Below are positions 5,170-11,692 of a stretch of 64,000 bases of DNA, piece by piece. This DNA is from Methylophilus sp. 14 (GTDB taxonomy: Bacteria > Pseudomonadota > Gammaproteobacteria > Burkholderiales > Methylophilaceae), in assembly GCF_015354345.1 (NCBI RefSeq), contig NZ_JADKYS010000002.1, positions 372,001-436,000 of the forward strand, given 5' to 3'. The position numbers were made by a program, and so were the translations under genes. The notes below the pieces were generated by a model, which saw only the letters and a program-made list of their open reading frames with translations, searched no databases and was not told the origin of the DNA. Numbering within the stretch: the stretch's first letter is position 1; every line of letters starts with the position of its first letter.

Positions 5170-5358
5170 ATGTCTGATGTCAAAGAGTTTGAAGTAGACG
5201 GCAAAGACTTGCCTTTGCACTGCCCAACCAAAGAAGTGGCGTTGTGGGCATCGCATCCACGCGTGTTTTTGGATGTCGCAAAAACGGGTGAGGTGTTATG
5301 CCCGTACTGCGGGACGAAATATAGATTGAAACCCGGGACGCAGGTGCATCATCATTAA
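5170..5358 (+). CDS. zf-CHCC zinc-finger protein
   Basis: A 62-residue protein of the zf-CHCC family, related to the zinc domain of the NDUFS6 complex I subunit. Conserved ligands are visible: Cys in LHCP, His in ASHPRVFLD and the CPYCG knuckle, followed by TKYRL. GGAGAG lies just upstream of the ATG. Its role is undefined in bacteria; the position after ilvE is common in betaproteobacteria as far as I recall. Confidence 0.88.
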   Translation: MSDVKEFEVDGKDLPLHCPTKEVALWASHPRVFLDVAKTGEVLCPYCGTKYRLKPGTQVHHH

Positions 5359-5362
5359 GTAG

Positions 5363-5389
5363 AAAACCCACGCAATGCGTGGGTTTTTT
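5363..5389 (+). terminator. Rho-independent terminator after ilvE/zf-CHCC
   Basis: A 12-base arm AAAACCCACGCA and its exact complement TGCGTGGGTTTT meet almost without a loop, followed by more T residues. It lies 5 bp after the stop codon. Confidence 0.88.
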
Positions 5390-5458
5390 GTTAGTGGATT
5401 TGAGATGCGTGGGTTTGGATAGCTTGAGAAAGTTATTCTTTCGATTATCTACTTCGTC

Positions 5459-5553
5459 ATTCCGGCATCGGCCGGAATCCAGGCGTGGTGAGATAGCAGT
5501 AAAAGGTCATTCTTTGGATTGTTCGTTGTAGGGTGGTCATTTTTGCCCACGCG
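5459..5553. repeat. Two short palindromic repeats heading hairpin element A
   Basis: A palindrome ATTCCGGC-ATCG-GCCGGAAT (5459-5478) resembles the widespread dRS3/REP-like 'CGTCATTCCGGC...' repeats. It is followed at 5528-5553 by GTAGGGTGG...GCCCACGCG, another common dispersed palindrome. The same two units, in the same order, precede the second large element near 11.06-11.12 kb. No coding sequence is evident here. Confidence 0.7.
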
Positions 5554-5576
5554 GTTGAGGATGTTTGTTAGGTTGC

Positions 5577-6125
5577 TTTTCGCCTTTTGGGCGAGTTACT
5601 TTTCTTTGCTTGCCCAAAGAATAAGTAACCAAAAGAAATGCACCCCAGCTTCCGCTTGTTTCCTGCGCTACTCGGCTTGCCGGGCGTCAATCAAAAACTC
5701 GTCCTGACAAGCCACACAGAACGTGGCTTGTTGCGGGACTCAAACAGTTGATTGCCGAAATCTCCCGCCAATCCTGCGTTGCTCGGCGCGGCAGATGGGG
5801 ACCCCGAACACCATGCGACTGCCACCGTAAGCGAACTGAAGAAAAAGAATCTGGTTTTTAGAACGTCCGCATTTATGAAATGTGAGTTTGGCGAGAATAA
5901 TCCCATTCCATCACGCTGAGTAGCGGAGACAAAATAAGAGTAGAGGGAGCGACTGTCTGAGCTCCGCGGCAGCTTGCGTAGTGTGCAAGCTGCTAGGGCG
6001 AGTTTCGTGACCGCTTATTTTGTTGAGTAACGCAAGGAAGCCGAAGGCCGTGATGGCTGGGTGCCCTCTTCTTTGGTTACTTTCTGAGGGGCAAGCATCA
6101 GAAAGTGACTCGCCTAAAGGCGAAA
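5577..6125. repeat. Long inverted-repeat element, copy A (non-coding, about 550 bp)
   Basis: The whole segment between the convergent zf-CHCC and murI genes folds as one imperfect hairpin. The left arm from 5577 (TTTTCGCC, then GCGAGTTACTTTTCTTTGC) matches the reverse complement of the right arm ending at 6125. The arms meet near 5840-5860. Each arm carries its own local stem-loop: 5707-5731 (ACAAGCCAC, 7-base loop, GTGGCTTGT) and 5969-5993 (GCAGCTTGC, 7-base loop, GCAAGCTGC). A related copy lies at 11141-11692. Short open frames inside resemble no protein. It may be a mobile palindromic unit or a structured transcript; which one is unknown. Confidence 0.85.
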
Positions 6126-6201
6126 GAAAAAGCGACAGAAATCTGCTAAAGCTGCAAAATACCGAAGAGTTTTTTTAATACTCTATCGTCGTATAAAAGG
6201 T

Positions 6202-6984
6202 CTAGCCAGTCAGTCCCCACAATTGCTGCATGACTAGCTCAGTCTCTTTCGACCCACTCGTCAAAAACACATAATCCCCAGCCTCTGTGGCTGCATTCAG
6301 CATTTTTTGTTGCTCCAGCACTTGCTGCAAACGCTTCGCCACCGCCGCACCAGTATCGATCAAGGTGACATTCGGCCCTACAATATCCTGAATATATTGC
6401 CGCACAAACGGGTAGTGCGTGCAGCCGAGTACGATGGTATCCGCGCCTGCCGCCATCAGCGGTTGGCAGTATTGTTGCAGCAAGGCTTGTGTCTGCGGCG
6501 CATCCAGTTGGCCTTGTTCTATGCATTCCACGAGGCCCACGCAGGCTTGGGTGACGACTTGCACGTTTTGGCCGTAATGCTCAAGCAGGGCGGCAAATTG
6601 CGCGCTTTGCAAGGTGCCTGTGGTGGCGAGTACGCCGATGATGCCGTTTTTGCTGGCGGCTGCCGCGGGTTTGACTGCGGGTTCCATGCCGATAATCGGC
6701 TGTGTGTAGTGTTGGCGCATGCTGCTGATGGCGGCAGCCGTGGCGGTGTTGCAGGCGACGACCAAGGCTTTGGCGCCTTGGGCGATCAGGGTGTCGGCGA
6801 TGATTTCGCAGCGTTGCTGGATTTCTGTGGCGGTTTTGTTGCCGTAAGGGGCGTGTGCACTGTCAGCAAAGTAGATGAAATGCTCGTGTGGCAGTTGGCG
6901 CGTGAGGTGCTTGAGCACGCTGAGGCCGCCGACCCCGGAATCCATCACCCCGATGGGGGCATTGACTGCAATCGCTGAGCACAT
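6202..6984 (-). CDS. murI: Glutamate racemase
   Basis: A 260-residue cytosolic enzyme interconverting L- and D-glutamate for peptidoglycan. Both catalytic cysteine loops are present: VACNTATA in the first half and VLGCTHYPF in the second, with the N-terminal DSGVGGLSVL signature. Length is normal. No clear ribosome-binding site precedes the chosen ATG. It is divergent from the cobalamin adenosyltransferase gene, 62 bp apart. Confidence 0.95.
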   Translation of the reverse strand: MCSAIAVNAPIGVMDSGVGGLSVLKHLTRQLPHEHFIYFADSAHAPYGNKTATEIQQRCEIIADTLIAQGAKALVVACNTATAAAISSMRQHYTQPIIGMEPAVKPAAAASKNGIIGVLATTGTLQSAQFAALLEHYGQNVQVVTQACVGLVECIEQGQLDAPQTQALLQQYCQPLMAAGADTIVLGCTHYPFVRQYIQDIVGPNVTLIDTGAAVAKRLQQVLEQQKMLNAATEAGDYVFLTSGSKETELVMQQLWGLTG

Positions 6985-11140: not shown

Positions 11141-11692
11141 TTTTCGCTTTTTCGGCGAGTTACTTTTCTTTGCTTGCACAAAGAATAAGTAAACAAAAGA
11201 AAGTGCACCCCAGCTTCCGCTTGATTCCTGCGTTGCTCGTCAAAATAAGCGGTCACGAAACTCAACCTGGTAGCTCACACAGAACGTGAGCTACTGCGGG
11301 ATTCGAACAGTCGCTCCCTTTCTCCTTATTTTGCCTGCGCTACTCGGCGCGTCAGATGGGGACCCCGAACACCATACGACTGCCACCGCTCCTAAATTAA
11401 ACAAAGAAAAAAAGAATCTGGTTTTTAACCGTCCAAACTTTGGTGTCGCTACTTAAATGAGAATAATCCCATTCCATCACGCTGAGTAGCGGAAACAAAA
11501 TAAGAGTAGAGGGAGCGACTGTTTGAGCTCCGCAACAAGCCACGAAGTGTGTGGCTTGTCAGGGCGAGTTTCGTGACCGGCTTATTTTGTTGAGCAACGC
11601 AAGGGAGCCGAAGGCCGTGATGGCTGGGTGTCGTCCTCTTTGGTTACTTTCTGGGGGACAAGCACCAGAAAGTGACTCGCCGAGAGGCGAAA
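11141..11692. repeat. Long inverted-repeat element, copy B (non-coding, about 550 bp)
   Basis: Second copy of the element at 5577-6125, here between the convergent panB and PEP-CTERM genes. Terminal arms (TTTTCGC at 11141 and GGCGAAA at 11686-11692), the central ATGGGGACCCCGAACACCAT block and GAGAATAATCCCATTCCATC are shared with copy A. Local stem-loops are at 11271-11293 (TAGCTCAC, loop ACAGAAC, GTGAGCTA) and 11535-11559 (ACAAGCCAC, 7-base loop, GTGGCTTGT). Enclosing them are the arms CAAAATAAG and CTTATTTTG. No convincing reading frame. Confidence 0.85.

Follow-up and report, generated by a model that had tools for sequence, protein, structure and literature searches.

The window, a stretch of 64,000 nucleotides from Methylophilus sp. 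14 (contig NZ_JADKYS010000002.1, positions 372,001 to 436,000), holds two copies of an inverted hairpin repeat, elements A (5578-6125, ~548 bp, ends TTTCGCC...GGCGAAA) and B (11142-11692), neither of which is assigned a strand. Element A lies between two genes that converge on it, which we take to be murI and a small zinc-finger-like gene, and comprises a left, L-type arm (5578-5788, + strand) and a right, R-type arm (5914-6125, - strand) around a centre (5789-5913, +) of the compact type, without a cargo gene, across which GATGG and CCATC could pair. The sequence-only reading had set the structure at 5707-5993, which is too small an extent, and had missed the element boundaries, the cargo-bearing relatives described below and the outer hairpin H1, the strongest structural signal. 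To the left of element A, at 5528-5554, is a separate palindrome (GTAGGGTGGTCA...TGCCCACGCGG); TGCCCACGCGG-like sequence flanks the L arm in many copies in this genome, and the palindrome resembles the GTAGGG palindromes beside the genome's own RAYT-like gene (L061). Further left, at 5363-5387 and 3' of the zinc-finger-like gene, stands a perfect 12-bp inverted repeat (AAAACCCACGCA/TGCGTGGGTTTT), probably the terminator of that gene; similar sequence persists in relatives that carry no element at the site.

Read from its end inward, an arm begins with a small CGCC/GGCG hairpin. Next come H1, itself a hairpin (~10-14 bp) whose short loop reads CTTGCC, CTTCGC, CGTCGC or otherwise, a linker of purines with an ACCC tail, and then P3. 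In P3 an outer stem is followed by a bulge on the 3' side and by an inner stem; beyond these are two conserved joints, AACTC and TCRRACAG, and the tip stem. H1 of the left arm of element A occupies 5595-5629 (+; stem GTTACTT..AAGTAAC, loop CTTGCC) and is followed by its tail at 5630-5646 (+; purine linker and TGCACCCC), with loop-tail pairing that is only partial; H1 of the right arm occupies 6076-6109 (-; loop TGCTTGCCCC), where the tail GGGCA complements the loop TGCCC. The left P3 hairpin (5677-5771, +) has its outer stem at 5677-5684/5764-5771, its inner stem at 5688-5694/5748-5754 and its tip hairpin at 5707-5731 (+; ACAAGCCAC at 5707-5715, loop ACAGAAC, GTGGCTTGT at 5723-5731). The right P3 hairpin (5930-6022, -) has the outer stem CAAAATAAG (5930-5938) / CTTATTTTG (6014-6022) and its tip hairpin at 5969-5993 (-; in + strand letters GCAGCTTGC at 5969-5977, a 7-nt loop and GCAAGCTGC at 5985-5993). 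The P3 cores of element B were located at 11258-11310 (left, +, stem TAGCTCAC) and 11519-11571 (right, -, stem ACAAGCCAC).

All four tip hairpins of A and B were thus found where the sequence-only reading had placed them, with 7-nt loops that start with ACA in arm orientation, and one stem, ACAAGCCAC, is common to the left arm of A and the right arm of B, as it had reported. Its description of the tips as always perfectly complementary does not extend to other copies: among the 55 arms of this genome with a 27-nt tip segment, 37 pair at 9/9 positions, 15 at 8 and 3 at 7, and some loops start with AAA or ATA. It had also noticed that the surrounding stem changed as a pair in the left arm of A, which is correct, although the letters that it compared, CAATCAA/TTGATTG, are in the wrong register and belong to the inner helix (5688-5694/5748-5754); the counterpart of CAAAATAAG/CTTATTTTG in register is TTGcCGGG/CCCGcCAA (5677-5684/5764-5771), and this too changed as a pair.

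A DNA search of the window's genome gave 60 matches, from which 27 distinct full elements of 524-627 bp (~550 bp) were parsed, after removal of one duplicate locus from 28 parsed rows. Each combines one L-type with one R-type arm (~210 nt each), inverted around a short centre; in L030, by exception, both arms are of the L type, and L028 consists of one arm only. Most tips have a 9-bp stem and a 7-nt loop, the middle of which varies greatly; some other arms show a stem of 4-5 bp closed by a 3-nt loop, and the left arms of L007 and L014 have only a short 5-bp tip. An insert of ~35 bp (TTAGGACTTTCGTCC...GGACTTAGG) occurs in the R-type arms of L005, L007, L008, L010 and L024, where it takes the place of the 5' side of the outer P3 stem, the 3' strand being retained; L025 has a related shorter insert and L023 another one. 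By a rough ORF rule, the longest ORFs on either side converge on the element in 16 of 27 cases and diverge from it in 2 of 27. No cargo gene was seen between the arms in this genome, so cargo is inferred from relatives. Direct repeats of at least 5 nt, as expected of a target-site duplication, were found at the ends of 0/27 elements, and 4-nt direct repeats at those of 2/27 (mean with re-paired flanks 0.53), which does not exclude transposition without target-site duplication. No Rfam family reached its gathering score for the element in a search of the whole window, which matched only a tRNA, and a permissive search of 5300-6250 gave 12 matches, all under the gathering score.

The P3 fold was assessed by scoring the named structure on a MAFFT alignment of 47 arms from the window's genome, 7 of 54 arms having been dropped for insertions. 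Across 32 pairs, 94.3% of cells were paired and 22 of the 32 pairs had changed on both sides; shuffled partners gave 75.3% (sd 0.7) and partners slid by 1-3 columns 35-49%. With relatives included (65 arms, 23 pairs) the corresponding values were 93.1% and 20/23, against 72.3% for shuffled and 31-45% for slid partners; 3 of 68 arms were dropped from this set as length variants (L018 right, L024 left and L046), and 10 cores without clear boundaries, duplicates and over-long cores were also left out. Stem changes that preserve pairing, the mark of a folded nucleic-acid element, were therefore found. Stem halves that mutate independently in other copies, which the sequence-only reading had named as contrary evidence, proved rare, with 96.4% of P3 tip cells paired across the 65 arms including relatives; one stem class has a fixed C.A mismatch, which leaves 16/65 arms unpaired at that pair.

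These controls ignore relatedness, and the P3 structure was read from the same sequences as were scored, so an independent test was made on tip segments outside the window's genus (116 distinct segments drawn from 148 loci). A closing stem of at least 4 bp was present in 52/116 and absent, by this strict rule, from 64/116, compared with a mean of 10.6 and a maximum of 19 when the 3' ends were dealt anew; the 52 closing stems use 11 different 4-mers, with GCGC common. The two arms of one element are alike at a mean of only 4.65 of 9 tip positions (26 elements), and since the stem is kept within an arm but not between arms, ordinary inverted-repeat complementarity gives no explanation. The whole element folds strongly on both strands (z -10.8 and -9.5), which is expected of any inverted repeat and was not counted as evidence. 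Alignment columns 134/172 were considered as a tertiary pair and rejected, as in other clades they look like the closing pair of the P3 tip stem.

For H1, the loop region and the tail can form at least 5 Watson-Crick pairs in a row in 98 of 123 distinct H1-like candidates, a set that retains at least two, one each from L180 and L190, which on inspection do not look like H1; tails dealt anew gave a mean of 47.3 and a maximum of 56. The loop/tail pairs vary by clade (TGCCC/GGGCA, TCGCC/GGCGA, GTCGCC/GGCGAC, and GTGGCC/GGCCAC in Aeromonas). This comparison shows a predicted pseudoknot, formed by the H1 loop with its 3' tail. Over 72 distinct pairs, the linker matched the mirror of the purine strand of the stem with a mean longest run of 6.89 (shuffled 5.93, sd 0.09) and the direct-order strand with 6.32 (shuffled 6.15, sd 0.11); the H1 controls ignore descent. 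Simple duplication gives no mirror copy, while a purine third strand lying in the stem groove would demand one, and the result suggests that the linker is a candidate third strand in a triple helix with the stem. H1-like single arms also occur on records of Aeromonas, Pseudoalteromonas and Ilyobacter, with no inverted partner in the stretches examined; by eye, the single-arm relatives L294, L295 and L293 show H1 followed by one long species-specific hairpin.

The murI site provides an orthologous position at which these changes can be followed. murI was present in 21 of 22 genomes of the genus, and both arms follow it in 8 of the 21 (G000, G020 with two murI copies, G013, G009, G007, G004, G021 and G014). 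Contig ends with partial arm motifs occupy the site in G003 and G006, only 51-79 bp are found there in G017, G008 and G002, and no L- or R-arm motif was detected at murI by the patterns used in the remaining genomes of the genus, one of which is cut after 54 bp and one of which has a lone H1-like motif. In congeneric species the element sits in the same place and orientation with different whole stems in the same arm (AGCAGCTTGC, AGCGGGCTGC, GGCAGCTCAC, AGCGGCTTGC), and orthologous R arms carry differing complete tip stems. Stem classes are common to L and R arms and to separate sites, and in the right arm of L004 the stem of one class stands within flanking letters typical of another. Stems thus appear to travel as modules, most simply via gene conversion between copies, and much of the change on both sides of a stem may reflect the copying of modules from element to element instead of independent compensatory mutation; a simple covariation count overstates the number of events. 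Of the two options offered by the sequence-only reading, a maintained fold is upheld and an exchange of cassettes is borne out by the differing whole stems at murI, with the qualification that the double changes which it took for compensation may in part be modules.

Elements or arms were found in 46/101 genomes by DNA search, in 68/300 genomes of the order by a P3 covariance model and in 11/369 genomes of a class sample by the same model, the window's genome being included each time. A pattern scan of named genomes gave at least 120 stretches, and among the 80 stretches listed are records of Gallionella, Sideroxydans, Ferrigenium, Thauera, Azoarcus, Aromatoleum and Aquabacterium. Twenty-five related genomes, picked for having matches, contain 2 to 23 arm matches each. 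No arm match was found in E. coli genomes with a 111-base query, and no element match in phages; the plasmid collection gave only short H1-like matches, in Pseudoalteromonas, Aeromonas and Ilyobacter, to which an Aeromonas query adds a match in Pasteurella. The arms in L121, L122 and L123 are open in several frames, and the resulting ORFs of ~80-120 aa (e.g. ...RRLRNSRFALRQSSP...) follow the fold yet might be annotated as genes.

The 25 genomes yielded 236 P3 matches, which form 56 neighbouring pairs less than 6 kb apart, 52 of them inward-inverted and 4 otherwise arranged. Arm spacing in the 52 inverted pairs is 82-269 bp in 44 and 839-1832 bp in eight, and named records add eleven inverted pairs with ~0.8-2.0 kb between the arms. 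In Gallionella-type relatives, 17/17 cargo units hold one ORF of at least 110 aa (163-519 aa), and the GC content of the cargo is below that of the flanks in all 17 (closest 0.53 vs 0.56); L123, with two ORFs, and L145, with a third, weak arm, were left out of this set. The records concerned are titled Gallionella, Sideroxydans, Sideroxyarcus, Ferrigenium, Gallionellales/-aceae, Nitrosomonadales or Proteobacteria, and some genomes hold several units (three in G335, two in G211). Cargo families include RelA_SpoT with PADLOC PDC-S33, PDC-S67, KilA-N with BstA, Mrr_N, DUF3800 and PD40, together with a DUF2971 match just under the cut-off and several ORFs without any match; no pair among 22 cargo proteins compared reaches E 0.01, and no recombinase or transposase was recognised among the cargo proteins of the two-armed units scanned. 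Enrichment of the cargo in defence genes was considered and dropped, as PADLOC matches at E <1e-9 are no commoner in cargo ORFs (3/23) than in flanking ORFs (4/30); the four flanking matches comprise two MutY-type proteins, one that is NUDIX/ThiE by Pfam and one that matches mad2.

By blastn, 13 of the 17 cargo units fall into five groups of 2-3 with homologous flanking DNA: L121 and L180 beside lnt (both flanks match); L122, L196 and L205 beside mutY (both flanks match for L196/L205, otherwise one flank); L188, L204 and L243 (one flank); L175 and L136 (one flank); and L182, L137 and L213 (one flank, with L182 and L213 joined only via L137). Within every group the cargo differs between members. 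The mutY side was followed in 60 genomes of the family of G335, all of which have a mutY-like match at E 0.001, some of these matches being partial and that of G211 weak. P3 matches were found downstream of mutY in 7 of 20 loci that were examined with 6 kb from among the best 30. Three further cargos came from this slot, namely L333, L335 (a HEPN_RiboL-PSP protein) and L338 (one arm by H1 motif only), which makes six unrelated cargos in six genomes; compact pairs are present in L339, L347 and L351 (one arm by H1 motif only). L336:1271-1813 (G084) is a RAYT-like gene in the mutY slot, adjoining a single arm. In L334, L341 and L346 a convergent gene, presumably UbiX-like, ends 44-114 bp after mutY. 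At the lnt site, arms and cargo are present in G211 and another gene in G335, while lnt directly adjoins a GIY-YIG gene in G084, G130, G173, G305 and G276. These same sites could be insertion hot spots that were hit repeatedly, instead of single slots with cargo turnover; 65 nt of intergenic sequence shared at 80% beside the lnt slot favour turnover over repeated insertion in this one case.

Comparison of genomes shows that folds are kept while stems change, that the same sites carry unrelated genes and that some relatives are without the element; between the arms of Gallionella-type relatives there are either ~80-270 bp or one foreign-looking gene. On balance, we consider it probable that the elements are folded-arm slots which exchange stems and cargo by recombination between arms, with new slots arising, more rarely, when a pair of arms is inserted. 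One folded arm, present in two inverted copies, would frame the centre and supply the homology for exchange, and stems and cargo would be swapped between the arms of separate elements through homologous recombination or gene conversion. The insertion that makes a new slot would be catalysed in trans by a putative activity which recognises the single strand in its folded form, whether ssDNA or RNA, in which case structure would be conserved and not stem sequence. We infer both recombination and transposition from the comparison of genomes and have observed neither directly. More tentatively, the elements might constitute a gene-exchange system of a new kind, in which inverted triple-helix pseudoknot arms are read as a folded single strand and single genes and stems are swapped as cassettes between sites and species, without a recombinase encoded by the element; the H1 fold, found on single arms in Aeromonas, Pseudoalteromonas and Ilyobacter, would then be old. 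We found no published description of the element in searches of open-licence PMC literature. If the preferred reading holds, the repeat would prove to be a genetic slot, conserved in structure, whose single gene is changed from one genome to another, with H1 a candidate triple-helix pseudoknot and murI, mutY and lnt as orthologous sites where exchange can be watched in strain collections. That apparent compensatory mutation may partly be module exchange calls for caution in covariation tests on multi-copy elements.

The arms could instead be large REP/BIME-type sequences moved by RAYT, an IS200/IS605-like Y1 transposase that reads ssDNA hairpins, which we regard as unlikely. The many-copy inverted hairpin pairs do resemble BIMEs, the window's genome has a RAYT-like gene (Y1_Tnp 20.5-20.9 bits, under the cut-off of 23), and the protein beside one arm in the mutY slot of G084 is 50% identical over 165 residues to the RAYT-like protein of the window's genome. 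In Nunvar et al. (PMC2817692) a REP is defined as a GC-rich imperfect palindrome preceded by a GT(A/G)G head; all REPs detected there have that head, and those listed are short. By this definition the arms are not REPs, as the arm alignment shows no GT(A/G)G head and a length of ~210 nt. The RAYT-like gene of the window's genome is itself flanked by GTAGGG... palindromes, a different repeat. Y1_Tnp matches occurred in 8 of 12 genomes searched, with none in G009 and G007 (14 and 15 element matches), G767 and G305; absence from these four is a weak argument, since the RAYT-like protein in the mutY slot likewise escapes Pfam. Some involvement of RAYT is possible.

Less likely still, in our view, is a structured RNA transcribed from the arms that serves the host at the 3' ends of genes, as terminator, RNA stabiliser or regulator, with cargo and swapping as side effects. 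The pseudoknot and the covarying third strand would suit a functional RNA, as would retention at the orthologous murI site and the convergent placement of 16/27 elements, but intergenic tolerance would account for that placement too, and the failure of any Rfam family to reach its gathering score, the patchy presence in relatives, the foreign-looking cargo between arms and the 27 distinct copies in one genome all tell against it. That the arms are ordinary terminal inverted repeats of a MITE or mobile insertion cassette, with hairpins as a by-product, is very improbable: inverted ends around passenger DNA were indeed found, and cargo lies between them, but no target-site duplication was, the tip stems differ between arms while each arm keeps its own hairpin, and the stems covary, as do the loop-tail and the mirror strand.

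In integron attC sites, RYYYAAC (R'') and GTTRRRY (R') boxes pair at the base of the site. That the arms are attC sites and the cargo integron gene cassettes can be largely ruled out, despite the folded sites, the single-gene low-GC cargo and an integron integrase (TIGR02249 over its cut-off) in 5/8 genomes including the window's own, because the RYYYAAC/GTTRRRY pair is missing from all arms tested (0/57 arm cores of the window's genome, 55 of them distinct, and 0/20 Gallionella-type arms), the integrase over cut-off is absent from G335, G211 and G767, all with cargo units, and no arm match was found in the stretches around intI of G000, G760 and G747. As a positive control, the attC rule recovered a 78-nt attC-like array beside intI in G760 (L354) and none beside the G000 and G747 hits. 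The integrase of the window's genome lies at G000:C9:68313-69245, and the simple rule found no attC-like site around it (L353).

Set beside known systems, the proposed folded-arm slots share with REP/BIME sequences and RAYT the many intergenic inverted hairpin pairs per genome, and differ from them in the missing GT(A/G)G head, the ~210-nt arms and the predicted pseudoknot. Defence-gene exchange hot spots likewise have different cargo at the same site, and some of the cargo here resembles PADLOC families; the slots differ in that each is bounded by the same portable folded arms and that the cargo is not PADLOC-enriched over the flanks. Integron cassettes with attC are alike in having one gene per unit, low GC and a structure-conserved site with changing stems, whereas the element has two inverted arms per unit, no R''/R' boxes, and dispersed slots in place of an array. 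Mobile insertion cassettes and MITEs are alike in their inverted ends around passenger DNA or nothing, but here each end folds as a module, its stems covary without a fixed sequence, and it has both a loop-tail pairing and a mirror strand. In outline the element works as a mobile insertion cassette does, and in its cargo it is akin to integron cassettes; on the tests made, it is neither an attC site nor a REP.
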